Assembly (NCBI RefSeq): GCF_964204645.1 | Contig: NC_134028.1 | Span: 5,802,501-5,866,500, forward strand | DNA: 64,000 nt | Reading direction: 5' to 3' | From: Tubulanus polymorphus | Lineage: Eukaryota; Nemertea; Palaeonemertea; Tubulaniformes; Tubulanidae | Part shown: piece after piece, positions 20,287-64,000 of the stretch | How the letters are laid out: each line of letters opens with the position of its first letter | Numbering within the stretch: the first letter of the stretch is position 1 | Program-made: the position numbers and the translations under genes | Notes under the pieces: generated by a model | Told to the model about the DNA's origin: nothing | Database searches by the model: none | Seen by the model: only the letters and a program-made list of their open reading frames with translations

Positions 20287-20411
20287 CTAAAATGAAGAAT
20301 AATCTTAAAAAACTATTATATAAATAACCTCGTCCGAAAAAATAATGTAAAATCCGAAAAGATACATTTTTTGATTCTGTTTTGATGATTTTTTTTCGTG
20401 AAAAATCATCT

Positions 20412-25500: not shown

Positions 25501-26200
25501 GACCAGAATTTCTTATCACACCAGTTAGAATACTAGACTATGAAACTTACACCGGCCGAGGCAAGGATTTAATCCCAGGACCCCGGAGACGTCAAATCTT
25601 TGGACAATATCGCGAGATAGGTCCTCTTAAAGTCGGATATTAAGATGCAACAGTTAATGTCGAAATTCGATAATCTGCAAATCGAACTTAGTACAAAGTG
25701 GAAAACATTTTTTCACTCAAATTTATCTGTCAAATTCGAGACAAGCAAATTGATTTGTTTTTCTATAGAAATCGCTTTAACATATTTCAAAATTAAGTCT
25801 TAACTCAATATCTATTGAATTGACAGGCAGCACTTTGAGGGTTTTCTTTATCTATTTGGCAAGTACGATTTTTTTCTGCTAGTCTAAAGAAGCGACCCGA
25901 TGAAGCTTCTATAAACTAGTAGCGATAGATCGTATATATCAAATAAATGTAGACTACCTACAGAGTACTACCTGTTTAACGTCAATTCTTTTGGTTAATG
26001 AATTTCGGTCAATTTATTCTGTTTAAAACGGCTTGCTTCTTCTTAATTTTACCTATAAATTTACCCATTCTAATCATTTCAAAATATCGTATAGCACTTA
26101 ATTGAACGAATAATGTTTATTATTAAGCGCCAAGTAATCTAAACCCATTTTCCTGGCAATCACGGAACTTATTTGTTGAATTTTCAGTGATTCTATGAAA
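22500..26200. repeat. Tandem array of ~942-bp units (4 copies, partial fifth)
   Basis: The landmark 'ttcctggcaatcacgg' starts at 23331, 24273, 25215 and 26150, giving spacings of 942, 942 and 935. A diverged first unit begins near 22525, 806 bp before the next. The central copies are nearly identical and the outer ones have drifted, as expected from unequal crossing-over. The array is non-coding. It may lie in an intron of the 19066-20286 gene, but that is not established. Confidence 0.95.
23561..23711. mobile_element. ~150-bp insert in array unit (copy 1 of 3)
   Basis: Starts at 'actctggcgcccaata' and ends at 'gacgtca'. It is absent from the first array unit, where 'ctaatgtaag' is followed directly by 'atctttgg'. 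It recurs at 24503-24653 and 25445-25595. On the minus strand it contains GGGATTAAATCC, resembling a worn B box, so a SINE is possible. It must have inserted before the array expanded. Confidence 0.6.
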
Positions 26201-30300: not shown

Positions 30301-33300
30301 TTCTTTCCATAACTGATAGAACGAAGTCCGCTTTAGGTATGGCAGGTTATGGTGATCTCTTTGTTTGCGGTAAAATTTCCAGACGTCAACCTTCCGAGTA
30401 GCGGATGGAAGCCATGCTTCAGCTTTGTGGGGTGCATGCTCAGCATTTTCGGTCAGGTATTTTTCTAACCAAGCCGATGCTTCGATGTTGACAGCTGTTT
30501 TAGAACGTGCACCCACCCTGACACGGCTTTTACCGGAGAGAACATTGCTCAGTGTCACAGCATGAATACCGTGAGCCATCAACCAAGCCTTCTGACACAC
30601 ACTCACACCTTTCACTGTATAGCTTTTTGTACTGCCCAATGAATCCTTTATAAACTGGTGACGTTCTCGCCACGATCTTGACCAAACGCTTCGGCGAATT
30701 TGCAAAATATCTTCTCTCAAAAGGAAGCTGTTGCAATGGTTCTTTTTACAGCACGGCATTAAAGCACGTGCTATTTGCCTTGCTGCTATTTTTTTCAGCA
30801 GAACGTTTGGTTTGGGATTTGATGAACCTACAAATGATTGCAATACATGTATCAGATTTAGTATTCATTGGGGTAACAAACTTAAACATCATTAAACTCA
30901 TTGCATCTCCTCCTGCAATCAAGTGTATGATTAGTGGAACGAAGTGTGTGCACTAAGCAATAGCTATATCCCCTTCTACTACTTACTTTAGCCTATCCCT
31001 TGACTGAAATGCTCCAGGGCACCAGATTGTATTTTTACAAGGAGCAGACTTGTAGGACCGTGTACCCCTCCCAACTTTCGCTATTAAACTACCAGTCCTC
31101 TCATTCTGGTAAGTATAATTTCATTTTTTGAACCCATAAGTAGGTGCCTGTTTGAATAGTATTATAGGGGTCAGGCCATAAATGTGATCCCCTTCCACTA
31201 TGATCCCTTTCAATTTATGATAGTAACTTCTTTCTGAATCTTTCTTTATCATGATACCTCCTCCAATACCATACCTTTTTTAATACATTTTCTAGGCTCC
31301 ACTGGTTTGATAACGCAATCCATAGCAACAGGGGATTCAAGCACTTCATTTCCATCAACTGTAAGGCAAAAGATTTTCACAAAATACATTTTTGATATCA
31401 TTTAATAACTAGGGGTCCTGGGAAAACATGGCCACTTGGGAGTTGGCTTGAAATGCTAAAAAATTAATTAAAATTATTCTTCAAAATTTCCCCTCAAAAA
31501 CTTCAAATACATGTATAAACCAAATATGAAGACAATCCATAGAGATGCGAACAGCAGACGAAATAGCCTGCCTAGGACTGGGCTAAGTGGGCTAAAAACT
31601 GGTTTTAACGTGGCGTTAAAACAAAAGACTGGTTTTCATACTTTTTATGAGTGTTATATTTTTTTCTTAATGTGGCCCGAATCAGCCACCATATGATGGG
31701 CTCTGAGGGATACAAATATATATGACAGATCAAGATAAATCATTGAGGGGTCTTCAAAATTTCCTCGATTAACCCTCGATTACAAGATAATTTGCTTTAA
31801 TTCGACGAGAAAATGAAAAATGGCCCTTTCCACAAATAAAAACTATCCATAAAATCAATGGTAGTTTTTTATTTTGAAAATCCCTACGAAATAGTAGAGT
31901 ATTTACAGAAGTATAGCTATTTTAGAAGTAGAATTTCCGTTTCCCTTACAAAATTCAGTGTAGGGATAGGGACCTGTGTTCTGGCAAAATTTAAGTTTTA
32001 GGTTATGAAGCCTTAAATAAATGCATCTTCTTATTCAGCTTGTGGAGAGGTTATCAGGGCGGGGATTAAACTCAAAGGACTAATGTTTTTTAAACTTAAG
32101 TCATTTTTAATGTGCGGAACTAAATAGTAAATATTGGTCCGGCCAATAAGGCCCCAAATGCCCCGGTTCCGCTGCCCATGGCTGGGTAGGACATATGTTC
32201 AAAGTGGGCTAAAAATTGATCTATAAAGGAATTCCCTGAAAATTTAATTCTATTAAGCCTATTTACCTTTGATGACACTAGTTATAGCGTTCAGGGTTGT
32301 ACTCAAATCAAACTCGTTCGATTCTGAAAAAACACATGTGTTAAATGAATGATTTTGCTTTAGATGTCCATATGTTTCGTTGATTTTACAAATGCTTATT
32401 TCTTTTCGGGTAAACCTACGTTCATTTAGATCTATATCTTCATCATACAAGGAACGATTGTGTGAATTTTCTTCAACTAGCAGTGATCCCATATCTTCTA
32501 AAAATGATTTTATAACACAACATTTGCAATTTTCCTCATTACTGCAATGAACTGCAACTCATATTTAAATTTCAATTAGAACTCATTAAAAAATGAAAAT
32601 TGTTTTTTATCAACATTGATCATTTGGGCCAAAAAACTAGATACCTTGTTTTTTATTACTATTTCTATTATCTTTAAGAAAAAATAAGTTTGTTATAAGA
32701 CAATCACAAGCTTGCTCTCAGAAAACATGAAATACTTATTGAATATAAAACATTAAGGTAAAGGCTGACTTATGTCGACAAGCAACGCGACACCTATCGA
32801 CTCGACTGAGAGCACCAGCAATCGCAGCCCAGCTTATGTCGACTGCGCTCCGATTCGCAGCAACTGATGGCTCAGATGGTCACGCGATAAACATTTAAAG
32901 AATAAATTTATATTATTTTGAATTATAGGGAAATATGTTTCTAGTTGAAAAGCTATTTCTTTAAGATCTTATCTTTCTGATTTTGTTTTGAATACAATGT
33001 GCTAGCGACATCATATAAAGATGGCCGCCCACACGGTAATTCTACCAATTTCATTTCTAGATCGCCGGTCCAGTCATCTGCCGTGCTGAAGGTTTGGTTT
33101 GCCTTTGAAATTACTTAAAGGGCAAATGCTGTCAAAATTGATCTTTCAGTGATTTCTTAACCAGAAGAAACTTAAGTATAATGACCCGAGACCTGACTTA
33201 TCGAAAAAGGTTGCTCGAATTAGCCGTAAATTAGTCATTTATCCTTCACTCCGTGCGTATATTTCACATACAATACAACGCTAACTAGCAGTCAAAATTT

Positions 33301-36300
33301 GCACTGTACATATTCGGTCTCTGATTGGCTGGAATTCATGCGCTCAGTTCCATCGCGTCGTAAATGAGCTTATGTCGGTTGCGATCGAAAGCAACTGCCC
33401 GCCTGCCATAGGCCGGAGTAGAACATGAGCAACTAGCCGGATACGGTTTGCAACGAGTCTGTAGGCGTCGGGTTGCCGTCGCAAGCCGATTTATGTCGAA
33501 CCGATAGAGCAGCAACTGGCGGCCTCTCGTAGGCCGCTATTCGGCGATAAACCCAGTTGCATCGGTAGGCATTGAGTGGCTTGTCGACACCAGCCATTCA
33601 TGCAGTTCAGATTTTATCTATACTATTGAATTTTCAGGTCACTCTACAATCCTGGGCAATTTCGTTATCATTTAGCCTATAATTGTTTACATAAAAATTG
33701 AGACATGGGTAGTGATGAGAAACAAGGTATCTTTTTAGCCCTAATTAATTAACTTAAAGGGTTCATAAGATCCTATAAATTACACTTCAGTTTATCGTAC
33801 CCCTACCTTCAAAGAGACCGACACCTATTTCACCTCCTTGCTGTGAAACGTTTTCAATTATTAGTGACTCCAATCCATCTGAAATTTATATTTGCAAGAT
33901 TGTGATAAACAATTTTCATTCTGACTTTTCAGATATATTTCTATATTATCTTCATTTGATACTGTTTCTTGTGACAAACTTTTTGATATCAAGCCATGCA
34001 ATGAGATTCCACTCCGCTCTAGATCATCAAAACCAGTTTTAACCAGGTTCACATATTCTCTGAGGGGTAATCAGATGTCACCTATGATCCGAGGTCACTG
34101 TTCTATGCAATCATTTATGAGAATTGGATAGTCGACCTCTCTCACGTCAAAATACATGATGTACTTATTTTCACAGTAACAGAATATAAATTAACTTTCA
34201 TGATGCGGTCGCTTGGCTAAGGGATGATAAACTGGGGTCCGTGGACTTATGTTCACTTGGTGAAATGCTTGACAATCTGACAAATATAATATCCAATGCT
34301 GTGATGACTGACCAATTGTGTATGAAAATTGACTGATAAAACACCTGTGTGACAAAACAAAGTCCTATCCGAAGTATACCATCATGAAGTCCATCATGAA
34401 TTTCAAATGACACACACCATGAATAAGCTACAGGGCATGGAAAATGTCTAAGTAGCGTCCAATTGACCTTGTCGAAAAGTGGCGTGAAAGACTTTACCTT
34501 TATGATACCACAAGCAAGGCATACGCAAACAGAACCACTAAACGCGCTGCCCTCCAGTCACATGGCGCCGCCTTGCTTTTCCCTTGGTATTCAATTAAAT
34601 TCAAATTTATTTAGATAGCGCGTGAGTTGCCTTCGATGTGCGCACTGTGGATCTCAACGATCGGCAAGTCCCATGCAGTTGCTGCAACTAACTGGTTGTA
34701 ACTAGAATTTTGATTTGTGCGGGGCAATCACTTGTTAGTGGTCTCCAGTCGCTTTGTCAATGTACGCTAGGCTTAATTTACCAGGTTCATGTATTGATCT
34801 CAATGTAATCGTGTTGGTTCAGCAGCGACCACTAATCAGATCGTTAAAGAGTTCTTAGAATAGCCAGAAAAAGAGTTATGGTCAGCGATTTAAATTTTTT
34901 ACCCTGCTGTTTTGTTGCACAATTATTCATTGTTGTAAGATTTCCACATGAGATTTACTTTGGACATGTCCGCGAATAGCTGCAACTAACAATATGTAAA
35001 AAGTACTTCTCGGTGAACAGCAATGGCTGCCAGCCAGCTAACTAGAATCTGATGTGTCTAGGGGTAGATACACGTATAGCCAAAATATCAAGGCAAAACA
35101 TTGAACAGTCTTCGTGAAAAATGAACACAATTGCTTATTGGGACTAGGCTAAAGTCCTAAGTGGGCAAAAAATGAATTAAATAAATAAGAACTTACCAGT
35201 TCTCTCCTGTGGGGTTACAGATAATTCTAAGTCCTGATCGGCGTTGATGAGTGAGACATCTATGTTCTCCGAAATCACACTGCCTTCTGCAACTACAATG
35301 CATAAAACCCCTTATTTTAAAGCATATATATGGAAATAAAAACAAACATTTATCATTCGTTTCCACTGCCACATCATCTTTTGACATCACACACGCGCGC
35401 GCTCGCGCGCGCGCACCCACGCACGCACGCACACACACACACACAATGGATGGATACATTTTCTCGGGTTAGTTCAGTGAATAGCAACAGTTATTTGTGT
35501 GTGGGCAATAAAAATATGTGTGTAATAAAACGCTTACCAGTACTCTCCTGAGGGGCTACAGATAATTCTAAGTCTTGATCAGCGTTGATGAGTGATACAA
35601 TTGAGACGTCTATGTTCTCCGATATCACACTGCCTTCTGCAACTACAATGCATAAAAATCATTTTCATGTTATCCCTGTTAATAAGATAAAGGTTATTCA
35701 TGCAATTGGTCATGATACATACCTTTAAGTAGGGGTGAGCTTCTTTTCTTATTCGGAGTGCTTGAAAACACATTCATTGAAGTCACATCAACTGAAAATA
35801 AAATAAATGGGGTCCATATTTTTAAGTAATTTCTTTATGTATTAGCATATAACTTGATATTGGTTGCCCCCTAGCTAAAGGATAATAAAATAAAGTTATA
35901 AAGTTATCCCGATTAGATAAAAACATTACAAAATTTTCCTCAAAATATCCTTGTTCCTACGTAATGAGGTCAAAATGGTAGCCTAGCTGATTACGTAATA
36001 ACACACTGCTCCTACAACCCATCAGATATAAGGTTCTTCCCTATCATTCATACCTCACATTTCACTATTATATGCAAACCATTAAAGATCAAGTGTAGCC
36101 TATTCATCAACATTCTTATTATGATCTCATTCCATAGATATACCAGGAGAAAAAAGTTATTTTTTCGATAAATACTGAACTTCAATAAATATATGGATTT
36201 GAGAAATGAATAACAGGTACGCAAATTTTCTGAACGCGCACTGACTACTCGCGCACTGACTACTCGCTATGCATATGAAGTCGAGGGGGCTACAGTGAAT

Positions 36301-39300: not shown

Positions 39301-42118
39301 AATTACTGATATTCTAGGCAGATTCTAAATAATATGATTTATGGCAGGAATCTGAACAAAAAGTTCAATTAGAATAAAGATAGAGTTTGGCGTGTCTGTT
39401 GCTGTTAACTTAAAAAGGGGTCGTCTCATTGCTCCGAAAGACCCATTACTCCGAAAATCCATTAGATAAAATGTAGTTAAAGCTGGTCCCATTACTCTGA
39501 AGTCGCAATACTCCGAGGTCCCAATACTCCAAACAATTTATTTGTGAGGATCAATAAAGCAGGACTGAACTTAAGATTTCATTAGGAAAGCTAGGCCTGA
39601 TAGCACAAATTATGAAAAATGTTTAATTCAAGGCGCCGAAATAACATCCTTGAAAACGTTCTATTGATTTTTACAATAACATAATGCCGGGGTAGATAGT
39701 GATATAGGGTACGGCGACTTTACGATCAATTCCCCGTTTTTGAAATTCCGTGGCCAGGCGAGTTGTTTCAAAGCGAGTTGTTTAAAAGGCAACCAAAAGG
39801 CTCCCAATCTGAACCCTTCAAATAATGTTCATCAATGTCGTGATTGTGTCTCTTTTACCCCTTTCAATATAGGCCTAGTTACAAATGGATTAAAAATTAA
39901 TATATAGGTCAACTGCCAGTGCTTTCAGGTTTCAATGCAGACTTTTTAGCAATCCTTCAATGGGGCCTACAGTGAAGAATTTATTAGAAATTAATGTTTT
40001 AGGTCAACTGCCAGTCCTCTCTGGCCCTAAAAAGACTTATATCAGGTATGTACCTCCAAAACTGACTGAGGTAGCCCACCTGGTATGCTCTCAAGTCAGG
40101 GCGAAATAGACATTAGACATTGTACTATCTGCATGAGGCCAAGGCCTAATTACCAATTAGGCCTTATTTGGCCTAATTACCAAATCACAAAATTTTTGAT
40201 AAAAGGTATAGTTCCATCATAGCTTGGTCATTTTGATTACTTAAAAAAGGCACTTTTTTGCTAAAAAAATTACACTAAACATGTATTTATTTAAAAAGGA
40301 TATCATTGACACTGATGCCTTTTTTCTTAAATGCCTTTTTTCAAATTCTGACATGGTCAGAAATAACAGCTAGATCCACCCTGATCCTCACTTGCCAGGG
40401 TTTGATTGCTTCCCGCCGCACAGCTCACACCAACACAAACCCTCTAGGCACCCACCAGTCTATGTATTAACCCAATCAGACACGCTACTTTCCATCTAGG
40501 TCCTATTTAATTTAAACACCATCAGAGGGGCCTGACAAAAACTTTTTGACCCCAGTATCAGGTACTATTCTTAAAGGGTAACTGACACTTTTTTTTAATT
40601 TCAAAATATGATGTATTCTATTGATCTATACACTCATCTTCAACCGTTCTGTTCAAAAATGTTAAGTTCACGCGCAATTTGTGATTTTATAACATGATTT
40701 TTGACCTCATTTCATTGTTTACATCGCTTACTGTTCAGCATCGGCTAAATCAGCAGGGGCGCGCTGCAACGTCATTAACGGGACAGCTGAGAAATAGCCT
40801 AGCGTCTATAGAAATGCGTTGTTGAATTTTGAGGAAACTGCGTGTATTTTCTGTTATATCTCAATGCCTGATTGTTCTTCAGCTTTGAAACTGGCCAGGA
40901 AGGCAAAAGGATCTATTGTCTATTGCATAAACCTATTTCAAAGAATCAATGAGTAGGCCTAATTTGAATAGGCTAAATCCATCAAATTGAAGATGCAGAT
41001 TTCAATGCACTGCGTAACGGTACACTATGCTAAGCTCTCAGCACTGTTACTGCTGTTCTACAGTTCACCTATACAAAATGTAGTTCAGCACCACAGGCAC
41101 AAAATGTCTTAGCTGGTAAAAGTGCAGATTCGCACCTCTCGTGATTGACGCAATCTACTGAATTACAAATCACTGTTCTAACTTCAGAATGTCTCACAGA
41201 ATCCAATGCAGTTATTTATTTTATGATATCTCTTCTAGAGAGCAGATTTTTGGCCCGGTTTTTTATCCCAGAATCGTGACGATCTTTCAGTAGGATGCCT
41301 TATTGGATTAGGAAATCTAAAGTTAAGATTTGTCTTAAGTTATAACTGAAACGATGTGAGGGTAATCAGTAGGCCTACATAAAACTAATCAAATTTTTGT
41401 CAACTGTCACTGGGGTTATTAATGCTAACCAAATTTCAAGATATCATCGTTGAAATAGACAAGAAATTTATATTTTCTTCCTCAAAATGAATGGGTCATG
41501 AAACATTGTTTCAGCAATATTCTAAACAAATCTTCACTTTAGATTGACCCATCCAATATGGCGTCCGGTTCAAAAATCGTGACGATCTCGAGACAAAATA
41601 CAGGCTAAAAATGTACTTTCTAGTGAAGATACCATAAAATAAACCAGTGTACTGAATTGCTGATGACATTTTGGGTCTGAATCAGTGATATTTAATGTAG
41701 CCTAATTGATTGAACCATTTTAAGAGAGGTGCGGATCTGCACTTTTACCTCTTAGCCTATAGGACAGATTTTGATCTCAAAAATAAATAGGCCCTAAATT
41801 CATATTCATTTGCTATTTATCCTACTATTTTTCATAGGCCTAGGCCTGTATAATAGCTAGATATAGACTAGTGCCGAGCAGCAACCTGTCTGCCCAGGTC
41901 TTGGACGGTGTTAGGCAGACCAATCGGAGGGTCTGCGGCCGGGAGACAACCCAATCGAGGAGCATGGGTCTCATAAACATTAGTCATCACTCTAGTCTCT
42001 AATCGTCTACAATAATAATAAAACCATGTTTTGTCCTTACTTTTAACTTTTTCGATGTGGCTCTGTTTTTACCGTACTTTGTTTGTGGACTCGGAGGAGG
42101 CAGGTCGGACAACAAAAT
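27399..42118 (-). CDS. DUF7869-type transposase-like protein
   Basis: Core exons: 30274-30827, 30017-30138, 29277-29409, 29037-29192, 28263-28379, 27528-28145 and a possible tiny last exon 27399-27410. All junctions keep frame and no stop interrupts. In order the protein shows FYQLWKESFPNVKI, a Cys cluster (FTKCTTC), RYTSLIIDGMDQKKTYIPHL, THVTGVICHAMQRRY, PPILYLQADNTCRENKNRY and FLSVGHTHEDVDQMFSVI. This is the order I know from proteins annotated DUF7869 in marine invertebrates, thought to derive from transposons; the Asp/Glu-bearing blocks suggest an RNase H-like fold (inference). The 5' part is a series of short acidic exons, nearly all phase 1-1: 31275-31358, 32267-32323, 32420-32497, 33807-33878, four copies at 35197-38111, 35723-35791, 39104-39152. 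A basic exon at 42041-42118 (PPPSPQTKYGKNRATSKK) probably lies near the start, but its phase 0 end does not fit 39104-39152, so an exon is missing from my model. No TIRs frame it, so it may be domesticated. Confidence 0.65.
32763..33594. mobile_element. TIR element in DUF7869 intron
   Basis: Ends 'ggctgacttatgtcgacaag' and 'gcttgtcgacaccagcc' are inverted copies of each other. GC-richer words ('cttatgtcg', 'gcaact', 'taggccg') recur inside in both orientations. No coding frame; about 830 bp. Confidence 0.55.
35197..38111 (-). CDS. Tandem array of four near-identical exons (DUF7869 gene)
   Basis: Exons 35197-35292 (96 nt), 35538-35642 (105), 36877-36981 (105) and 38016-38111 (96) all have TAG acceptors, GTAAGT-like donors and phase 1 at both ends. 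Each encodes EGSVISENIDVS, then (in the 105-nt copies) three extra residues, then SLINADQDLELSV and a variable end (TPQERT, APQEST, AAQEST, ASQEST). Any number can be included without a frameshift. A companion exon at 35723-35791 (DVTSMNVFSSTPNKKRSS) has a decayed copy near 38485-38515 with a stop, so the duplicated block sometimes carried both exons. Confidence 0.8.
35387..35444. repeat. CA/CG dinucleotide microsatellite
   Basis: Alternating purine-pyrimidine tract of mixed (CG)n and (CA)n, a Z-DNA-prone sequence. Shorter (CA)n remnants occur in the homologous intron copies near 37900 and 38205. Confidence 0.9.
37481..37700. repeat. 110-bp perfect-looking tandem duplication
   Basis: Two adjacent 110-bp copies (37481-37590 and 37591-37700) in an intron between exon copies. 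They are identical as far as I can read, so recent. Confidence 0.85.
39153..40570. other. Intron or spacer with short phrase repeats
   Basis: No exon is recognised. 39411-39545 contains repeated 'attactccgaa'-like phrases (cattgctccgaaa, cattactccgaaa, cattactctgaag, aatactccgagg, aatactccaaa), a pattern seen at the ends of some non-autonomous transposons. No partner end was found. Confidence 0.35.
40575..41106. mobile_element. Fragment of TTAA-flanked element (inverted relative to 52483-53913)
   Basis: TTAA (40571-40574) is followed by AGGGTAACTGACACTTTTTT and then sequence matching the right half of the 52483-53913 element in reverse complement, up to about 41105. The rest is interrupted by the MITE at 41115 and not recognisable after it. 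Confidence 0.75.
41115..41749. mobile_element. hAT-like MITE with 8-bp target duplication
   Basis: 26-bp TIRs starting GGTAAAAGTGCAGAT (one mismatch between ends) enclose 635 bp without a coding frame. Flanks TCTTAGCT (41107-41114) and TCTTAGCC (41750-41757) form an 8-bp target duplication, typical of hAT elements. It is inserted into the TTAA element. Confidence 0.8.
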
Positions 42119-51239: not shown

Positions 51240-54200
51240 ATGTGTAGCAAAAGTGATTCAAATGGATGGACATTTTTGTATGCGGATGGCTTAACGAAAA
51301 AGGTCATGTTAAGAATCGGAATGCAGGTTGTCGGTCAAGTGAAGAAGTTGCGTTGTGATAAGACCACGAATGACGGATTCATATCGGTAAGTGACTTTAG
51401 ATTCATTGTCTTAAGAAATTCACCATGTAAATGAATATGAAAAATTCGGTTAGCGGTAAAAATTCCCAATTCTTCAAATAGGTAAAAATTCCCATTTTTT
51501 GACTTAGAGTGTTAGTAGATACAATCTTAAGGTCAATGTAGTCAAATTATTGATACAATTTAATTCATATTCACATTTACTGTACGGTATAACATGAATA
51601 TCATGAGCATTCTAATTATCGTGCAATTGAAATTAGAAAATACTACAAATTAACAGTTTATCAATACTAAATTAATACTAAAAGTTATCGCACAGCTCAA
51701 ATATATCGCAAATTGAAAAAGTGTTCATCGGACTTTACATTACGCTAGGTTGAAATAAAAATAGTTCAAATTAGTAATTCATCGAAGAATTCAAAGTAAA
51801 ATATACAACAAGTCAAAAGGATTTCACAGTTCAAAAATATTCGAGGTCAAATCTATAAATACTAGGATAGAACCTGTCCTGGACACGGATTTTATCATGA
51901 TTGAGTTTGAGTTGATTATTTTCTCATCTTGAAAATTGGTCCTGCTTATTGAAATCATAAATTTCGAAATCCACTAATTTAAATACTGGTTTTTCTCCAC
52001 ATAATCAATTATTATCCAGACGTATCAACTCTACTTGATTTTGGTAAATGTCACTATGTGTCACTCTGTTATCGCCACCCTCTTCAGTCCACTTCACTTA
52101 GTTACATAATTTGTTTTTACTCTGAACTGTTTAGAATTGCTGTGGTTTCCACGGTACCCCTTGGTGTTTTATTGCTTGGTCTGTTTATCTTTATAGTTTT
52201 GACACACTGCTTCTATTTTAGATCCTGTGAGTTAATATGCTTTGTTACTTGTTTTTCTGGTCATTCCATCTGATGATGGCTGTTAATCAACAGCCGAAAC
52301 GTTGTGGTTTCATAATAATAAATTGAATCGTATAATTTTAAATGCGAAGTGTGGGATTTCTTCATTTTTTATACGTAACGTAATATATAGTGAGTCACTG
52401 CTGTATAGGAAAGTTTCAGTTACCAGGCGCCTTGCCATTTTGAGGCGGTCCCACAGGTCCCGCATTATTGCACATATTTTACAGGGTAACTGACACTTTT
52501 TTAAAGATTTTCTACTATTCAATACTTTTCTACTATACAATAAGGCTAGGTGATTTCATAATTGGAAAAATCTTTTCAATCTAGTCAGAATTGATGATTT
52601 TGATGTTCGCGCACCTGTTCAGTGTATACATTGCTTCTGCTGAACGCGTGGTACTGTGTCTATTAATAGAACTACGTCACTAAAGTGACGGCTCGGAAAT
52701 GATGTCTATAGAAATGAATAGGAAATAAGCTATAAAAGCAAGCAATTCAACAAAAAAAAAGCAATTCAACTTAATTTTATACCTATTTGGCATTCGAATT
52801 GAGCCAAAATGCCTCTTGATTTTGAAAGTCTACATATTAATGATTATAATTAGCTGTTGAACGGACCATATCCGTTCAAACTAAGCGCAAAAATAGGATT
52901 TGAATAGCAATCCATGGCATTTTCTAGTAGACAGCAAGGAACACGGATGTTTAAATCATCGTTTTGTATTATCATTTAGTGATAGTAAGTATGATCATGG
53001 TTAGATCTAAGAATATTTTCACTTATGAACTGATGAAACTTAGACAGAATTAGCCGCAAGAACAATTTCAATTCCTTTCTTGAAATATACCTCGTATTGG
53101 TAGCGGCTTTGGTCACAAAATTAGAATATTTCCTCATCCATCCTATTTTAAAACTTAGAAATAATGTTTGTGAAAGATTTGTGATGTATCTATCAAAACT
53201 CTTCTGCAGCGTGAAACTTTAATCGAAAAACATTATTCCTTTGAATATTTGTTGTAAAGGCTGTAGAAATTTATTAAAATTTTTTGTAGTGTTAGTTTTA
53301 AAACTACTTAGTCTTAAATGACTATGAAAAATAGTAAATAGTAAACGAATATGAATCTATTTATTCTTTAGCGAGATCGAAATCTGTGATCGCTTATAAG
53401 ACACTTAGTATAGTATGCTTGTGGTGCTAAACTATAGGTGAACTATGGAGCAGCAGTAACAGTGCTGAGAGCTTAGCATAGTGTATTAGCTTCATAGCTG
53501 CGGATTGAAATCTGCATCTTCAATTTGATCGATTTAGCCTATTCAAATTACTCATTGATTCTTTGAAATAGGTTTATCCAATAGACAATAGATCCTTTTG
53601 CCTCCCTGGCCAGTTTCAAAGCTGTAAAACAATCTGGCATTGAGATATAACACGCAAACACACGCAGTTTCCTCAAAATTCAACGCATGACGCTATTTCT
53701 CAGCTGTCCGGTTAATGACGTTGCAGCGCGCCCCTGCTGATTTAGCCGACGCTGAACAGTTAGCAACGTAAACAACGAAATGAGCTCAAAAATCTTGTTA
53801 CAAAATCACAAATTGCGCGTAAACTAAACATTTTGGAACAGAACGGTTGAAGATGAGTGTATAGATCAATAGAATACATCATATTTTGAAATAAAAAAAG
53901 TGTCAGTTACCCTTTAACATTTTCTAAAGTAAAACCTTTAGCGCGATTAATTGTCGTCCATCCCTCTTTTGACACAAAATTTAAACTCATGAATCGTTAG
54001 AAAGGTGACAATTTCTATTTTCCGATGGTGTTTATTTAATTTTTCTCGGCTGCAACAATCGAACACAGTTACAGTTAAGATATGTCACTTTTAGGGAGGC
54101 ACCTAAAAAAATTGGTAGTTTTGTGTCGTTGGCTGAATGAAAATAGAAATGGTCACCATGCATTCTGACGATTCATAAATTGAAATTTTGTGCGTAAAGC

Positions 54201-57200
54201 CCGCCGCACACGGCACCGAAAAAACGTTTTTTCCTCGTGAAAAAAATTTAAATCATATATTGATATAATGTATATACTCGAATTTATTTCAAATCTTAGA
54301 GATTTCTCCCATAAATTTGATAATTTACAAACGATTTTATTCATTTATAACAAAGATTGTTGTATATCATGGAGAAAATAAGCAGTTATCTTGATCACTG
54401 TGTTGCGGGGCGTGGGTGGCATCCTGTATACGCAACTAAATTGACCTTTTGAAATCTAGATCTTTAATTACATCGCAATATGATAACAAGTTTATCTCAT
54501 TTGATAGCTTTTACTCCAATCAGGGACTAGCGAGTGCAAGGAGAACATTATTTGTAGATCCATTGTGGAAGATTCCGGCGTCGATCTCCGTAATTATGTA
54601 ACAACTCATGATTCGGTGGAATGTCATATTTCGCGTAAACTTCCAATGTGTTATTGCCATCGTTTTTTATAATACAGTTAGCGTTTAACTTAGAATGGTT
54701 CAAATATGCACCTGGATTATCCTCTATGGCCAAAAGTGTTCCATTTTTATCTCGACTACCATCGAGCCAGAGATTATTGCCCATATCATACATTGTTACG
54801 ATCTCTCCGTTGCGTTGGTAGACTTTTTCGCGTTCTATTCCCTCTTTTTTACTTATTATCATACCCTTGTATTCGCAAATGAATTCACCGGCTTTGATAA
54901 ATCGCGAAGAAATCGCCCCGTGCCCCTTTTCCTTGCATATAAATTTGTATTCCAACTTAACATCCTGTCTTTTTTCACCAACGTCGTCATTTTTTATATC
55001 TGCGGACCTATGTCTTGTCACCTTCGTAGTTTGAACCATATAACCGCGTTGTTTGTGCGAACAATATTTCCAGCCACGGATACCTGCCTCAGTTGACAAT
55101 TGCTGAAGTAAAAGATGAAAGTGATAGCTATTTTATAATCTATGAAAAATTATAATCTAGATAATGATTTTGATAACTTCGATTCAATTATAACATACCC
55201 TACTGAATCTTTGAAATCCTTTCCCGATATCAATCAACTTTGGTTCACATGTTTTGATCTTAAGCCATGCTACGAACTCCATATGAAGTTCACGAGTACT
55301 CGTGATATTTTCATCGCTTTTTATTTGTTCATCACAAAATTCCTTCAAGAAGGGAATACTTGCTTTGACGTCGTTCGGAAAAGTTGAGCCTCCGTGGTGA
55401 TGTCTTGCTCGTGGCATTTTCTCCTCATTAAAATGCCGACAATGACGTACGGTAACCTGTCTGCGCGTGGGCGTGTTTTGTGTGTATAATAGCTAGTGCG
55501 GTACACTATTCGACGGGGTTGATTGATGCGTACACATTGGAATGATTTGTCCAATTCAAGCGTACACGTTGATTCACATTGATTGCGCAAATACTTTTGA
55601 TAGAATGTATGTATATATAGTAATAATCCCCTGGTAAATATCCCCCCCCCCCCGGTAAAAATCCCTCTCAACGGGTAAAAACCCATTTCAGTTTTCTATC
55701 ATATTTAAGTATAAGTCCTAAATGAAAATAGATTATACTTTTTAACAATAATATTCAGGAATATATATGTAAACCGCCTATCCCAAAGAGGAATATCGGT
55801 AGCCAATCTTTTAGCTTTATCTCACCAACACTATAATCTTACCAATATATATTCGGGTGAGCGAGTCGATTCAAATAAGAAAAAATAAAAAAAGGAAGAC
55901 TTAAAACATATTTTTGATGAAATTTAAAACTGGAAATGATTTAGCTAAAGGGAATATTGTATTTCAAACTGTTATGTTGAACATTTTTTCGTGAAGCGCT
56001 CTGAGACATTATGAGATTTAGCGCTAAACAATAATAAATTTTGATAATGTGATTTTTATGCACATACGTAGCTTAGTAAAAGTCACAGATTATCCAAGGT
56101 GAATATTGTGAAAAACACCACGGCAAATTTAAATTTTTTTATCAAACTATCTAAGTTTTTCAACATAAGAATATCGAAGTATCTTATTGTATTTTGCTGT
56201 GAAATCCAATTATTAGGGGATTTTTACCGGGGGTTATTTATCGGGGGGGGGGGTTGACCTGTTACCGTTTTGATAAGCACGATCCACACAAAAATATATA
56301 CTATATGTCGGTACTGATTAAGACGCAGGGGTGGATCCAGAGGGGGTTCGCGGATCCGAACTTTAGACCAAGTGCCCTTTCGAAAATCACATGTGGATAA
56401 TTCCACACGACATTGATCTATGACGAAAGTCCACACCGGCCATAGGCCTATATTTGATACATTTTTAAAATATCTTTTCTACTGGACTGTGAAAAAAGAA
56501 GGGATCAAGCATTGGTTCTTTTCTTTGTTATTCAGTTAGGTTAAAATGTACATAGTTCGCTAGTTTGAACCGAGAGGTGGTGTAAAATATATATGATCGA
56601 ATATCAATTTCGGGGATTTCGATTAAAACTAGAACACCAAGTAACTGATGCATAATGGCATAATATTTTTCTGTGAAACAACTAACAAGAAATCTGGATA
56701 GATTTACAGAATGTCATGAAATGCCCAATCAAGAAACAATATAGGATCTCGGCGCATTCGCTTGTCGCCTGGTTTTTTTTCATGGGTGTCATACAGCTTC
56801 TTGGAACTAATTTTCTTGTTTAGAATATCTGTAATAGGCTACTCCTCTACAAACCAAAATAAAACCTCTATAAATCAAAACTCGTAAACAAACAGCTCAC
56901 GGGACTAGATAAAACATCTCATTTCACGATAAAAACTTTTACTAATGGTAATGTCACCTCTTATCGTCTAGTTCTTTTCCTTGTAGATCATTCTAAGATC
57001 GAATGAAGTCAAATGTTTAGCGCTGAATGACTTCAGGTTCCGAACTTCTAGTGGTACTTTCACGCCACAAGCATCGGAGTCGCGGACGATCTTCAGTCGA
57101 GAATTTAAACAAAACTTCTCGGTCCAATCAAGATATGTTGTTGATGAGACGGATAATGGTAAGTATAGCGTCTTAAATCTAAATTTGTTTTCATTTCTTT

Positions 57201-60200
57201 CTATCCACTAAGCAGGCGCAGATCCAGGATTTTTCCCAGGAGGGGAAAAATGTTAATGTTAAACTGCCGACTAAAATCTCTAATCATAGGGGCCTATTCG
57301 GCATATTGTTTGGCCAAACATAAGATGATATGGTACCATCGGAGCCATCGGATATTTTAAGCTGGTTATAGGTTTTTATGATAGGTGGGTCGTTTAGGTC
57401 GCCCTTAGTCATCATTGGCGAATGCGCGACTCATTTGAGCTACTAAACTACTATTAGCAGCGACCGTCAGCGAGACCCCGATATGTTGTCAGTTGCATCT
57501 ATGGGTAATCAGACTGAATTACTCCAAGGTTGCATTGGCCCGAGCATGTTTACAACACTAGCCGCGATCACACAAGTGTTTTTGGGCCGGGCCACCCGAG
57601 CCAAATTCTAGCACGAGACAAATGATTGCGTTTGAATTGCAACTGGTACCGGAAAAAACCCCACTTCGCTTTGTTCGAGCATTGTTTTAGTATCGATTGA
57701 ATGGTTTGCGTGTGAACGCACTCTCTAATTAGGCACGGGCCAAATCGTCTCCGTGTGATCGCGGCTAATGTCAGCGACGAAAAATACCAGTGGTGAGTTG
57801 CGCACTAATGAGCATGGCGTCTGAACGACATCACTCGTTGCTGAATGCACGGGGTTTTTGTCGACCGAGCGCTTCTGCGTCGCGATCGCTCCAAGGCTGA
57901 CCTACCCCGGGTATATGACCTATATGACCTCTAAATAGAATAGGTTTAAATGCAACATTGCAACAAGCGTTTCAATGCTTGAAACAATAAATTTTCAATA
58001 TCAAAATCACTTATAAATAATTAGTGTGGATGTCAAATATAAACTGAATATTTTTGACGCTTATGCTTCGTTGTATGAATACGCAGAATTCCTTTTTCTA
58101 GGCATCGCTCCCTCACTAACTGAAGAACAGCCCGAGTCATCTGTTTATGGTAAATTATATTCCATTAATATCGACCCAAGCAGAAGCACAGTTTTATCTG
58201 CACTTAACACGAAAATGTCTTAATGTTTTAGATTTTGGACACGATATTCCAGAACATTTTACAAGTAAGTAGAGTATGATGGATGCTTTAGAAGCTTCAT
58301 TAATGCAATCCCTTTAGCATTCAAACATACCATATTCAACAATTAAGATTAATCAATCCATAACGATTAAATTTTAAAATATTTCCTTTATAATTCCTCA
58401 ATTTTTAATTTCCGTTATAGGTCAATCAGTTGAATCAGCGAATGAAACGAGTGAAAGTGAGTACCGGTAATTGTAAAATGAAAGCAGAATAATGACGCCT
58501 AATATGTTTTATATGTAATGGGTTTATCAAATTACTTGAATTATCATATGAATAACATGTTTCCTGCCCACAGGTCAAGAAATCGAACCTCAGACATCGC
58601 GTGAGTTACTAGCAAGTACGTTATATCTAAAATTATTTTTGAATTGAAAAATAATCCATATGCCATCTAAAAGATTACCTGAAACCACCTTCAAAATAAA
58701 TAGATAGTATATGTAGGAATATCAAATGAGCATGATTTATCTAATATCACCTGAAACATTGTAGGAACGCGTTTGCTGAAAGATGATACTATGAAATTCT
58801 TCATAGGTGAGCTTAAAAGTTATCCTGAAAAACGAGATCTCTAGATTCCCCTTTGTACGATGGTTGGGTAATTGAAATCCCTCCCGGTTGTGCAAACTGC
58901 TCTTGAGACAATAACGTCAATTTCTATGTGTCTTAATTCGAGCTAATTTTAATGATCATTTACGAAAAATAACATCTTGTGATATTTCGAAAGACGAATA
59001 ACTCGCGCCGATAAACCTCATTAAGAAATTTTATCTGACCAACTGTAGGAACTCAGCCAGTACCTGCGTCAAAAATTCGACAGACAGAATGGTGCCGTTC
59101 AGTGCGGGAATTGAACGGCGATCATGTTTCTTATCTCGAAAAACAGTTTCTCGAGAATCCCGCATTCTATACAATAATGTTGGTGCGGCAGGATGGAGCG
59201 GGAGAATTCGAGGTTATCGGAGGAAATCACACTCTGGCGGCGCTAAACAGAGTTCTATTAAAAGAAGGTAAGATGATTTCTGATCCCTGTCGTGATGACG
59301 TAAAAATTGAATTATTGCAACCAAGTCCCATTTATTCTTTTCAGATCTAGGAGATAAACGAAAGGTTTATGAGACGCCGATATGCAGCGTATACTCCGCC
59401 CAGATGCCGGATGATTTAGCGAGATTTCTGGCTGCCGACCATAATCTGGCACACTCCCGGATACTTGACACTAAGTATACCGACTTGGTTCGGTCAGCCA
59501 GAATCGTTCTCCTTCAACTCGAAGGAAAATCTGACTTCGGGGAAGAAATCGCGGCTCGAAAAGAGATAATTCAGAGATGGAAAGCTTCTCTAGAAGTTAT
59601 GTTTGGTCTCAATGTAAGTTTTCAAATACTTGTATTAGAATAAAACACTCTAATCCGTCTAAACTATAGAGATAAGTGGAGAAGTTCCCCAATAGAGTAG
59701 TATGATAGGTTTAGTATATTGCATTAATGTGACTTGTATAGTTTGGACGATTTAAAATGGTTCTTATAAACAGGTATCAGTTAAAATGATCCTTCCAATC
59801 TAAATTTGCTTTATCTATCAGAGCCGAGAAATGTGGGGTCTTAAGTTTAGTAAAGTATATATAGGTGTCACTAAACCTAAGAACCCCTAAACCCAACACC
59901 TAAGAGTAAGGGGGTCTTATTACAACGAATCCACAACGTTTCGGCTTTTGACTAACAGCCATAATCAGATGGAATGAGATTATCATCCACCTGACTATGG
60001 CTGTTAGTCAAAAGCCGAAACGGTGTGATCTCGTTGTAATAATTGCCATCGTGAATCTAGAATTCTATTATGTGTGACTTCTTTGATTATTTCAAATACT
60101 TGAGAATAATGGTACGTAAGTGAAACTAAAAGAGTCAAGTCGTTGTGATTTGTGGTTTGAACCGTCGATATAGCACTCGGCAGTGTTGCTTTTGGCAGAT

Positions 60201-63200
60201 CGTTTCCCGCTAATGGAACTGTATTTTTTGGAATGAAACGAAACACTACAGAGTTTTTGCACAACGTTATTTAGACCGGTCTAAATTTGATCCGGTCCAA
60301 TTTAGACCCGACCAAGCGTTCACACCGGCAAAAATTCCGTTCCAAATTGGCCCGGTCCATTTTAGACCGATCTAATTTTGACCACAAAGAGTGAACCAGG
60401 TCCGGTCCAAATTTTGGTACGGATTAAATCTCTAGCCGCGTTCACACGACAACTAGTTAGACCGGTCTAAATGAGTCAGTACCTGGGGCCAGTTGCATAG
60501 TCGTGGCTTAGACTTAAGACCAGTCTAAGACCAACTTAGTTCTATAGCCAATCTAACAAATTAAGATCAGTCTTAAGATTTAAGACCACTTTTAGACTTA
60601 AGTCACGACTGTGCAACTGGGCCCTGGTCCGGTCCAAATTTAGACCGGACCAAATTTTGGTTAGCGTTCACACGGCGTTTTGACACGCGTTGATAAAATC
60701 GCTTGTCTCTGGGCCCACAATATGTTGCCATCTGCTAGATAATTAACTGGGCCTGGATGAAGTCTTACTTCCAGATTCCAAGTAGAGCAAGACATTCTTC
60801 ATTTGACGAATTCGATTCTCTCTCAGTTTTAGACATTTTTGATTCAGACGCTATCATTTGTCCTGGACACAAATTTGGTCCGCCCAAGTCCGATGTTTTT
60901 GGTCGGGCCAAGTTTGACCCTCAAGCAGACACACGCCAAAAAGGGTACCCGTCTAAACAGTTTTCCCGGGCCAATTTGGCCGGTGTAAAAATGCCAAAAA
61001 TGCTCGTGTGATCGCGGCCATAAACTGGTATCACACTCAAACCAATATTTTCTTTTAGCGCAAGCAACTCAACGATCGGTACCGTATCGTCATTAAAGCA
61101 GCACAAATGCCCACGTGTGCATGGCTGCTATGGGAAAAAATGATCGAAGGATGGTCGAAGGGGCATATCAAAGGCCAAAAATATGAAACAATCGACAGGA
61201 ATGGCGAAAAAATGAAAACATTGGTACCTTTTGGGTCAAGGAAGGTCAAATCTTTGGTATCATTACCTGTACCGGATATGATGGCTATCATGAAGGATAT
61301 TACCAACGGAAAAATCGACCAAAAAGACATTATTCCATTATGCAGTAGTAGAGCCAGGTTAGTTTGCTATTTATCTGTTATATATATAATGTCTATAAAT
61401 CATATTTTAATTTATTTATTCATTCCATTTACAGGGTTACTAAGACTACAGCTGCTAAGACTAGGGAAGTAAGTATAACAATTTAGTAGCTTCTCATTTA
61501 AAAATTAACCAAACATGTCTGATATGGATTCTCATACTGATATATTTCATTTGTTTACAGCCTGCCGTAGAACGAGAGAAGAATGAACAAGCTGAAAATG
61601 AGGTACAGACACTTACAGCTCATATAGCTCTTTTTTCGTATATGTCACATTTCTTACAAATGATGAATATGTTTCATGAGTTATTATCAAGAGGGAGATT
61701 TTGTTTCAGCAAAACAGAGCAAATTTAGATCGACGAGTCACCGGAGAGGTAATTTATGATTGTAAAAATATTATCACTTCATAAGAACTTAAAGCATGGA
61801 CGATTAGTACAGAAGGAGTGGATTCAGTTGGGTTCTAGGAGCCCTCCCCCTCCCCGATTTTTGCCCAAAAGAAGATTATTGTATATTAGTGGTTTGTCTT
61901 AGGGCCTTAGGTTTATCTGAGGCCATCTTAACTTAAGTTATGTTTGAGGATGATAAACCTTTGACTGTGAACAGTACGTAATCTCTCAGTTAACTCATTT
62001 TGATTGATAGTCATCAGTGTTCAATCAACATTCTTTTATTGGAAGTCATGATCAAAGGAATTTTCTCATTTCTATTCGGTTTCAGTTGGAAGTTGACCAG
62101 TCATCATTTGCAGAAGATATGGATATGGAAGACGACCCTAGTGTCTTCATAGTAAGTATATGACTATTGCACGGGCACGTTGAGCATTTTTGAGGTTTAT
62201 TTCTTTGTCAGTCATCGGCTGCCTAGGCGCATTTTCATTAAGATTTTCTGAGAAAAAATTTAGTGCATTATTTCTCAGCACGTATAAGATGGGCTGGCTG
62301 GCTGGTGAATCAAGGCACACGCGTCCTCTATGTATTGAGATGCCTTTTTGCTCTGGTTGCGTGGGTGATAAAAACTTAATTTATAAGAGTAAAATCAGAA
62401 TTCATTAATATACTTTTTTCTTTTCAGGAAAAAGAACACGCATCAATCAGCCAAGAGGTATGGAATATGTCATTTACGTAGATATTGTTGTTACAATTTT
62501 TCATTGCTTGTCTAAAAGCTTACACCCATTCTATGCGACCAACTAAGTTTTTTTTCAAAATCAACATCGATTGTTACAATTACTGATATTGTAGGTCAAT
62601 GAATTGTTGACCTCTATATGTTATCTACGTCTACTAGCTTCAGAGTACCTTTATTGATGGCAATAAACGAAGACGTCCGCGCCACGATTTAGAGGTTAGT
62701 TATCATTCAAAAAAGTTTAAAATGGGAAGCGTCCTAGGAACATTGAAAACATTTTTTTAAAAATCCTATTTTCGAAAAATATCCAACGTCTGAATTAAAC
62801 AAAAATAGAATTTTTGAATAAAATACCCAGGGCCTGGTGTTATAGACTGGTATTAACTTTTAACCGAGAGGTTAACTCAATTGAAAATGAATTGAGTTAG
62901 CTCTGGGTAAAAGATAAATACAATTCTATAAAGCCGGCCCCAGGATTTTTTAATCAAACAATGATATTTTCCAGGACGCTTCCGTAAGGGTTAAACGTAT
63001 TTACATTATATTGTATAATCACTTGTGTTTTTTGCACTTGTAACTCATTAATGTTGATAAACCAATGATTACACGGATACGTGTTAGAACAGTTCTTTTT
63101 ATATATCCAATCAACCATTAGTCATGTTATATGTAACTCAAGTGCATATTTCTTTAGATATCCCATGTTCTACCTACGAAGAGTTTACGCTTACAGGCAA

Positions 63201-64000
63201 GTAAATCTTAGTATTTTTGTTTATAAAAGAAAAAACTGTATTTGCCGTCGCTTTCCCTCTCAGTGAATTATACAGTTCATAACGACCCTACCACTACTTG
63301 AGAACGAAATCGGTTTCAGCTATGTCTCGCTTTCTACGTTCAATGGTAACTGCTGTGTATTTTATAGGTGAATCAAATCAATGCGACAAGCCAGACCGAA
63401 CCTAGTAATGAGGTATATATCGATAATGTAACCCTCAAGTTGTTTCAAAGGACATCGGGTGCCACAACAACAGTCAGTTTTGGTAGTATGTACTTGACAT
63501 GTGTCAAAATGATCAGCATGCTAAACCAGAGAAATAAAATATCGATTCTCAATCCATCCTGTACTGCATGGCCCGATTTTATAGACTGGTATTAACTTTA
63601 ACCCGGGGGTTAACTCAATTGAAATTGAATTGAGTTAGCCCCCGAGTGAAAGTTAATACCTGTCTATGAAACTGGCCCCAGGAGTTGAAGAATTGCATAA
63701 AATTCTTTTCACAAGGTGAATCAGAGAAAAAGTCACTCCAGCCGTAAATCAAGTTTAACCCATATATACCTATAGGGACATTGTTAAACATAAGAAAACA
63801 ATTAGGTTTTTCTTCATTTAACAAAATTGGAACTGCGCATCTGTGCTGGTCATTTTAACACCTTTATCAGGTGAACTAATCGAGTTATGGCACCCCGGCT
63901 TCCTTTCAAACGTCAAGTCGAAATTTATACTAATGGCAACTTGCATCGAATTTTACAGGTTGTTACACAACAGCTCGTTACAGAGCTGAGGGAAAAGCTT
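51240..64000 (+). CDS. ParB/sulfiredoxin-like domain protein (partial, continues right)
   Basis: Exons: 51240-51386, 56987-57158, 58102-58149, 58232-58264, 58421-58456, 58574-58615, 58765-58806, 59049-59267, 59345-59613, 61059-61357, 61435-61468, 61561-61602, 61710-61748, 62086-62151, 62428-62457, 62644-62694, a 9-nt microexon 62974-62982, 63158-63196 (GC donor), 63368-63412, 63959 onward. Frame holds throughout, about 568 residues so far. Residues 1-106 form an unrecognised N-terminal unit (GWTFLYADGLTKKVMLRIGM). Residues ~185-300 look ParB-like: WCRSVRELNGDHVSYLEKQF, then EVIGGNHTLAAL (~230-240, cf. the GxRR/GNHR box), then a basic/tyrosine segment and RFLAADHNLAHSR (cf. LAENxxR). Next come a helical region (~337-447) and a charged tail with a likely nuclear signal (GNKRRRPRHD). 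ParB-fold proteins bind or hydrolyse nucleotides or DNA in bacteria; its role here is unknown. Start: ATG with a strong donor 147 nt later. Confidence 0.75.
51444..51880. mobile_element. Partial inverted copy of the GGTAAAAATCCC element
   Basis: Begins 'cggttagcggtaaaaattcc' and then follows the reverse complement of the right part of 46474-47217 ('agatacaatctt', 'ttcatatt'). The far end is not recognisable. It lies in intron 1 of the ParB-like gene. Confidence 0.6.
52266..52307 (+). other. Hammerhead-ribozyme-like conserved motif
   Basis: CTGATGA (52270-52276) is followed by a 7-bp stem (GGCTGTT/AACAGCC) with a 4-nt loop and then GAAAC (52296-52300), the order of a hammerhead core. One unpaired T separates CTGATGA from the stem and no cleavage triplet could be placed. 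The same motif occurs twice as an inverted pair at 59917-60043, with CTGA followed by TTA or CTA instead of TGA. Hammerhead motifs are known in Penelope-like elements and retrozymes; whether this is one is uncertain. Confidence 0.35.
52483..53913. mobile_element. 1.43-kb TTAA-type TIR element
   Basis: 20-bp matching termini AGGGTAACTGACACTTTTTT. Flanks are TTAC (52479-52482, one change from TTAA) and TTAA (53914-53917). Such target sites suggest a piggyBac- or Kolobok-type non-autonomous element. No transposase frame inside. A partial second copy is at 40575-41106. It is in intron 1 of the ParB-like gene. Confidence 0.8.
54548..55417 (-). CDS. SET-domain lysine methyltransferase-like protein with primase-type winged helix
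   Basis: Two exons, 55199-55417 (73 codons from the ATG) and 54548-55102 (184 codons plus TAA), join in phase 0 through AGG|GTATGT and CTTCAG|CAA, giving 257 aa. Residues ~125-250 form a SET domain closest to KMT5A/PR-Set7: GHG (133-135), FICEYKGMII, LNHSK (the NHS motif at 208-210, which shapes the cofactor and substrate site) and LLHNYGDRRR near the end (cf. YDYGDR). Family members methylate lysine, classically histone H4 K20. Residues ~15-97 (PFLKEFCDEQ, ITSTRELHMEFVAWLK, GIRGWKYCSHKQRGYM) resemble the winged helix closing P4/D5-type primase-helicases (inference). It lies antisense in intron 1 of the ParB-like gene. Key SET motifs are intact. Confidence 0.8.
55628..56255. mobile_element. 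TIR element with GGTAAAAATCCC ends and C/G runs
   Basis: The left end 'cccctggtaaatatccccc', extended by a C run and two more 'gtaaaaa(t)ccc' phrases, faces the right end 'ggggatttttaccgggggtt' with a G run. About 630 bp, no frame. Shares its interior with 47690-47935. Confidence 0.7.
57561..57765. mobile_element. 205-bp MITE, GCCGCGATCACAC family
   Basis: Perfect GCCGCGATCACAC / GTGTGATCGCGGC ends with TA on both sides (57559-57560 and 57766-57767). Internal 'cacgggccaaat' matches the copy at 2502-2804. Confidence 0.85.
59917..60043. repeat. Foldback of two hammerhead-like motifs
   Basis: Two ~56-bp arms, inverted, each carrying 'atggctgttagtcaaaagcc' then gaaacg, separated by about 15 bp. 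The arms match the motif at 52266-52307. The intron is otherwise unremarkable. Confidence 0.8.
60435..61020. mobile_element. MITE, GCCGCGATCACAC family, with nested MITE
   Basis: Ends GCCGCGTTCACACG and CGTGTGATCGCGGCC, with TA on both sides (60433-60434; 61021 starts 'ta'). Internal 'tagaccggtctaaat' and 'gtccggtccaaattt' palindromic words recur outside it at 60274-60420, so a second related copy or a tandem duplication lies immediately to the left. A 145-bp foldback (60483-60627) is inserted inside. Confidence 0.7.
60483..60627. mobile_element. 145-bp foldback MITE nested in the previous element
   Basis: Arms begin 'ggggccagttgcatagtcgtg' (left, 60484) and 'cacgactgtgcaactgggcc' (right), continuing inward with 'gcttagacttaagacc' and its inverse. 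No coding content. Confidence 0.75.
62829..62943. mobile_element. 115-bp palindromic MITE, copy 1
   Basis: Foldback with 'tatagactggtattaactt' on the left arm and a worn inverse on the right. Its centre 'ttaactcaattgaa' pairs with 'attgagttag'. It is in an intron of the ParB-like gene. Copy 2 is at 63570-63682. Confidence 0.8.
63570..63682. mobile_element. 115-bp palindromic MITE, copy 2
   Basis: Same family as 62829-62943 but better preserved: the arms 'tatagactggtattaactt' and 'aagttaatacctgtctat' are nearly perfect inverses, with 'cccggggg' near the centre. Confidence 0.85.

Follow-up and report, generated by a model that had tools for sequence, protein, structure and literature searches.

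Giant eukaryotic transposons such as Teratorn are large and carry accessory genes. The same combination is reported for Terminons (PMC6431247), for giant KDZ, EnSpm and Sola elements (PMC12477816) and for Starships (PMC12153272). One of them, the 21.5-kb algal DNA transposon Sola1-1_Ec32 of Ectocarpus, is reported to encode a protein with ParB-like and DNA-methyltransferase parts (PMC12477816, which cites Iyer 2011 and Petroll 2025). Here we analyzed a window of 64,000 nt from the nemertean worm Tubulanus polymorphus (GCF_964204645.1, contig NC_134028.1, positions 5,802,501-5,866,500, forward strand) that contains a ParB-like gene, and found this gene to be cargo of a mobile element of ~52,000 bases, apparently a recently active one. 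Coordinates beyond 64000 refer to the same contig with the window numbering continued, and genome-wide searches covered the 268-Mb Tubulanus polymorphus assembly. The initial annotation, made from the letters of the window, overlooked the element and presented the gene as a nuclear gene of an animal, which is the wrong frame because the gene is cargo of a 52-kb inverted-repeat mobile element.

The worm element resembles algal Sola1 (PMC12477816): in each giant eukaryotic transposon, a long accessory protein includes a ParB-like domain and is encoded on the opposite strand from the transposase, and there is a link to epigenetic enzymes. In Sola1, however, the ParB-like part is fused to the DNA methyltransferase, whereas the worm element has a separate SET protein, a DUF7869 transposase-like gene and an animal host. 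Nested repeats are reported for brown-algal giant transposons (PMC12477816), as in the worm element. Fungal transposons with a TET/JBP DNA dioxygenase are reported to carry, similarly, an enzyme acting on epigenetic marks (PMC12730594); the corresponding protein of the animal element has a SET domain instead. A DUF7869 core with a ParB-like partner was found in the worm element only and not in the giant-transposon papers searched, and the accessible part of the Terminon paper mentions neither ParB nor a SET domain (PMC6431247). The open-access PubMed Central literature yielded no ParB-like protein in animal transposons, no mention of DUF7869 and, by title and start of abstract, no SET-bearing transposon; absence there is weak evidence. 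ParB-like proteins of algal transposons are thus already in print, and the animal case would extend such accessories from algae to animals.

The 52.1-kb region at window 20326-72464 is an inverted-repeat mobile element. Its left terminal inverted repeat (20326-24900, plus strand, inner border approximate) begins AACCTCGTCCGAAAAAATAATG and aligns to a right copy whose end, at window-equivalent 72464, lies beyond the window. The repeats are ~4.6 kb long, the match ending near 24900 on the left and near 67490 on the right. They agree at 1747 of 1750 alignment columns over left 20936-22685 and are ~95% identical from there to ~24900. Both contain an array of 49-bp units, in the length of which they differ. 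On the left, this subterminal array (20437-21456, plus strand) holds ~21 copies of a unit in which conserved segments lie on either side of a short inverted repeat, GAGG...CCTC. The terminal bases include CCTCGT; its complement, ACGAGG, was counted 19 times on the plus strand of the whole window, and 17 of these fall within the array. Three identical open reading frames (ORFs) of 78 residues, spaced 942 bp apart, lie in and beside the left terminal repeat (23523-25640).

The ends recur elsewhere in the genome. The copies on C8 and C12, together with a second C12 end, stop on the right at the same base as the window copy (C4), after ...CGGACGAGGTT, beyond which the sequences differ; the reverse complement of this right end lies at window 20326. 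With at most three mismatches allowed, the terminal 26 bases matched 10 places, compared with one for a reversed control pattern. C4 and C8 have both ends, separated by 52,139 and 48,943 bp, respectively; C7, C11, C59 and C6 have one end each, and C12 has two single ends. Flanking sequences differ at the 10 ends read, so that inverted ends stand at several sites with differing flanks, the arrangement of an inverted-repeat DNA transposon. One partial copy (C7:11652057-11664655) has a terminal-repeat end and a DUF7869 region, with no ParB-like match on C7.

An exact 32-base stretch from one exon of the ParB-like gene, that carrying box II, occurs at four places in the assembly: the window copy and the copies on C8, C12 and C59, together termed family A. 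In blocks over 5 kb, identity to the window copy is 99.9-99.98% for C59, 99.2-99.8% for C8 and 98.5-99.3% for C12. C59, a 60-kb contig, might represent a different locus assembled a second time, but its left flank is unlike that of C4. Relative to C4, coding changes affect 4 codons in C8, 3 in C59 and 7 in C12 (1830 of 2136 nt covered), with synonymous to nonsynonymous ratios of 1/3, 2/1 and 1/6, respectively, which are too few to read. Judged by this divergence the family-A copies are young, and the element seems to have been recently mobile because its copies are near-identical yet have different flanks.

The ParB-like gene (plus strand, splice model) comprises 24 exons at window 56987-67341, of which exons 1-19 lie inside the window (56987-64000), and encodes 711 residues plus a stop in 2136 nt without an internal stop codon. 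Donors are GT at 22 of 23 junctions and GC at one, all 23 acceptors are AG, and the unspliced interval contains 224, 219 and 201 stops in its three frames. The ParB-like core is split between exon 7 (59049-59267), which holds its first half and the GGNH box, and exon 8 (59345-59613), which holds its second half and an LAADHN motif. Both are open and in one consistent phase (GTQPVPASKIRQTEW...EVIGGNHTLAALNRVLLKED, then LGDKRKVYETPICSVYSAQMPDDLARFLAADHNLAHSRILDTKY...), with EVIGGNHTLAAL at model residue 174 and RFLAADHNLAHSR at residue 219; embedded as they are in the 24-exon chain, they are real coding sequence, as the initial annotation held. They are not its two largest exons, as it also stated, but the third and fourth largest, being exceeded by 67036-67341 and by exon 9 (61059-61357), which encodes a conserved RKQLN region common to three families of the gene. 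The long charged tail it described was recovered in exons 10-19 (61435-64000), where an NLS-like (nuclear localization signal-like) KRRRPR stretch and coiled-coil-like repeats are visible by eye. The gene ends at 67341, ~60-150 bp short of the right terminal repeat. The first exon that could be placed, at 56987, has no in-frame ATG, the first methionine is residue 115, and no start codon was identified in the modelled exons. A gene start at 51240, as originally drawn, is doubtful because a SET-domain gene occupies the opposite strand at 54551-55417. The NCBI model of the locus (P0001, LOC141914662, 'uncharacterized protein', Tubulanus polymorphus) has 6 of 23 junctions in common with ours, skips exon 16 and misses the ParB-like part because it begins within exon 9.

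Across the genome, the core matches 24 exon-level stretches, which we grouped into 13 loci. Besides the four family-A copies, diverged relatives were found at nine places: two relatives of family A (C8:2764238 and C8:4107137), family B (C10 and C2), family C (three on C9 and one on C36) and a C6 fragment with stops (E=7.7e-5). Core identity to family A is 37% for family B and 31% for family C, and all three families conserve both the core and a C-terminal domain, GDVLLVDW..GIY. Both introns around exon 8 lie at the same positions in families A, B and C, the second donor of family C being inferred from the reading frame. The gene therefore bore introns before the families split, and its residence is old. 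These shared intron positions, together with four near-identical copies in contigs of an animal assembly, make contamination very unlikely and agree with the earlier view of a deeply intron-split gene that is neither contamination nor a fresh transfer. Homologues elsewhere, which that annotation had proposed to seek, did not emerge: protein-database searches, one of which scored only 7996 candidates sharing most words, returned solely NCBI's partial model of this gene and no relative outside Tubulanus polymorphus.

The gene's partner in the element is a DUF7869 gene (27483-30864, minus strand, exons partly modelled), identified by Pfam PF25273 at E=2.9e-40 on 27483-28403, with a further exon match at 29040-29186. 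Genome-wide, this profile gave 66 exon-level matches, which we grouped into 36 DUF7869 loci. Eight of the 13 ParB-like loci have such a locus no more than 36 kb away, where ~0.13 would be expected at random (~0.94% of points fall within 35 kb, or ~0.12 of 13); the radius was chosen after the data were seen, and copies within one family are not independent. The distances are 30.0 kb at C4, 32.0 kb at C8, 35.5 kb at C59, 24.5 kb at C8:2764238 (a weak 26-residue match, E=1.9e-5), 20.2 and 21.0 kb at two C9 loci, 22.3 kb at C36 and 11.8 kb at C6. For the remaining five (C12, C8:4107137, C10, C2 and one on C9), DUF7869 is >200 kb away. Counted by family, linkage holds for 4 of 6 (family A, C8:2764238, family C and C6, but not family B or C8:4107137). 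In addition, an ORF ~4 kb from the family-B gene on C10 is 39% identical to the N-terminal part of the window DUF7869 gene (30205-30864; E=1.7e-45). Because the pair is linked in several families and this transposase N-terminal part adjoins a family-B gene, DUF7869 and the ParB-like gene seem to form the core that these elements share, with the SET gene a family-A extra. Near one diverged relative, a PHD finger (Pfam, 5.1e-8; 4340-4618 of C8:2762001-2768000) lies ~1.9 kb downstream of the ParB-like exon on the same strand, and may belong to a gene of a related element.

The SET gene (54551-55417, minus strand) was modelled with two exons and 249 residues. Pfam places a SET domain at 54551-55132, the spliced protein scoring E=3.8e-15, and 14 of 16 matches to solved structures are to KMT5A/SETD8/SET8 (best E=2.4e-7); by domain likeness, the protein would thus be of KMT5A type. 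Searching the genome with it gave eight exon matches, all in the four family-A copies, the exon-1 match at C8 containing a TAA.

What kind of domain the ParB-like protein carries is a separate question from its mobility. Residues ~118-280 likely form a ParB/sulfiredoxin-like domain without the canonical GERR box that binds cytidine triphosphate (CTP), and on sequence comparison the presence of such a domain in the gene product is probable. In PHROGs, the best match of family A is the ParB-like phrog_723 (E=0.0016), which is also the second match of family B (E=0.18), and the sole match of family C is the ParB-like phrog_6392 (E=0.031); E is below 0.01 in family A only, and none of three reversed controls matched a ParB family. 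An hhalign comparison with a profile built from 82 ParB sequences (three, together with 79 from a set of 80 viral loci of which one failed a screen for stops and length) gave P=0.014 with boxes I and II in register, against 0.097 and 0.44 for reversed controls. Three phage proteins of GGNHR type (L181, L160 and L167) have, by eye, a similar order of GGNHR followed by an Asn-bearing helix.

Bacterial ParB/Spo0J/KorB proteins (PF02195) share with the worm protein a suggested order of box I, box II and Asn-bearing helix, but have a GERRxRA box II where the worm protein has GGNH(T/S) and no Pfam match. Aligned over the three families, box II reads GGNH(T/S)xxAL and not the GERR(x)RA of CTP-binding ParB; because the GERR box is absent, ParB-type CTP-dependent clamping is not to be assumed. 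Sulfiredoxin has a GGCHR box with a catalytic Cys. The worm protein has a similar glycine-glycine-x-histidine box in which Asn replaces that Cys in all three families, so the sulfiredoxin signature is not reproduced.

Several results weigh against the assignment. No ParB match was found in Pfam or NCBIfam for members of any of the three families. The profile match reached just P=0.014, with 5 of 300 column shuffles scoring as high, and masking box II abolished it (P=0.47). A three-sequence ParB profile gave P=0.22, with helix, box II and Asn helix in order though not significant. Among 30 motif-bearing ORFs, an unmasked ranking placed three ParB-like ORFs first and three others 13th-15th, and nothing was left after motif masking, for which reason the GGNHR-type phage match is not counted. 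The initial annotation's proposed domain is therefore plausible through PHROGs, where ParB families were matched, but weak, depending mainly on the GGNH box and lacking support from Pfam and NCBIfam.

A possible, if doubtful, alternative is that the mobile element is as described and its GGNH protein is unrelated to ParB, an unknown domain, for example part of a transposition complex, whose box II likeness arose by convergence. The confinement of the similarity to a few residues, the null masked comparisons and the silence of Pfam, NCBIfam and the profile search of PDB (one irrelevant match, E=0.17) would all fit this. It accounts less readily for three diverged families each matching a ParB PHROG over the GGNH box, albeit below 0.01 in family A only, for the register of boxes I and II with ParB and the ordered, if not significant, alignment of helix, box II and Asn helix, or for the same motif order by eye in GGNHR-type phage ParB-like proteins.

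Other approaches to the core were uninformative. An hhalign comparison with GGNHR-type phage proteins (80%, P=1.4e-5) was discarded as biased, the phage set having been picked by motif, and SopB was too narrow as a ParB seed. Phage tblastn with families A and B as queries gave E values of 5 or more, which is noise, and 56 pattern-matching stretches in viral contigs searched with the core yielded no confirmed case. A structure model of exon 7 alone had a predicted local distance difference test (pLDDT) score of 57.7, too low for use.

Taken together, we favor, as reasonably likely, the explanation that a giant inverted-repeat DNA transposon carries the ParB-like gene as an accessory, with the DUF7869 protein as probable transposase. 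A repeat-binding accessory is the simplest reading because a DNA-partition-like domain is combined with a long coiled-coil-like tail bearing an NLS-like stretch and with iterated repeats in both element ends. The protein would be nuclear and oligomerize via its tail; it would bind the arrayed repeats near both ends, pairing or marking them, and once bound there might help the transposase or protect an intermediate. The SET protein, so far seen in family A only, may modify chromatin on the element.

Against this explanation stand a number of observations. The DUF7869 protein is taken as the element's probable transposase from its context; Asp-containing motifs (IIDGMDQ and LQADN) are visible by eye, and the structure model of its ORF (pLDDT 41.2) is too low for use. 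Target-site duplication is unsettled because the C4 flanks permit a 4-bp duplication, AAAT, and C8 has none. The joined flanks of C12 and of C4, as candidate empty sites, were unmatched elsewhere in the genome. In the C12 copy, a splice dinucleotide is altered at exon 61435-61468 and 176 bp are missing ahead of the last exon. Finally, no SET gene was found in families other than A, in a genome search that listed no further SET gene whatever, so more diverged ones could be missed. On C12, GTTA borders each side of a 4.9-kb stretch (C12:8749256-8754128) that separates one right end from another left end; such borders could arise from a 4-bp target duplication combined with a rearrangement.

Three further interpretations of the element are unlikely. 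In plasmid F, SopB binds tandem repeats, and the 49-bp arrays invite comparison with these. By this analogy the element would carry a plasmid-like maintenance module, in which the ParB-like protein loads on centromere-like 49-bp arrays in both terminal repeats and pairs or segregates the element or an extrachromosomal intermediate, with the element's own H4K20-type methyltransferase marking chromatin; we consider this improbable. Slightly more remote is an endogenized large DNA virus, its linear genome bounded by terminal repeats, for which the size, the multi-kilobase terminal repeats and the missing target-site duplication at C8 would speak. No capsid- or polymerase-like domain appeared among the Pfam-tested ORFs (part of all ORFs), however, and the many introns of the ParB-like gene and its DUF7869 linkage also argue against a virus. 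A segmentally duplicated ordinary animal gene with coincidental inverted repeats would match the >99% identical blocks across tens of kilobases, but is very improbable given the sharp common inverted ends with differing flanks, the DUF7869 linkage in diverged families and the lack of any relative from another species in the protein-database searches.

The favored transposon explanation points to giant DNA elements in an animal whose core of two genes, DUF7869 and ParB-like, has been retained in several diverged families. If true, the DUF7869 domain would be explained as probably a transposon component. With near-identical copies and a defined repeat array at hand, binding and movement can be put to a direct test.

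Ten further ORFs or exons of the element fell below the Pfam cut-off, in a search covering part of its ORFs, and Rfam gave no match over window 20000-64000. Within the element, a nested dispersed repeat of ~0.8 kb (32758-33596) occurs at >30 places among the matches listed, the longest at 85-88% identity, and 40591-40955 and 53549-53899 form an inverted repeat pair whose arms are 94-95% complementary. To the left of the element, a host gene at 10612-12296 has Ribo_biogen_C and Fer4_RLI domains, a pair also found in TSR3.

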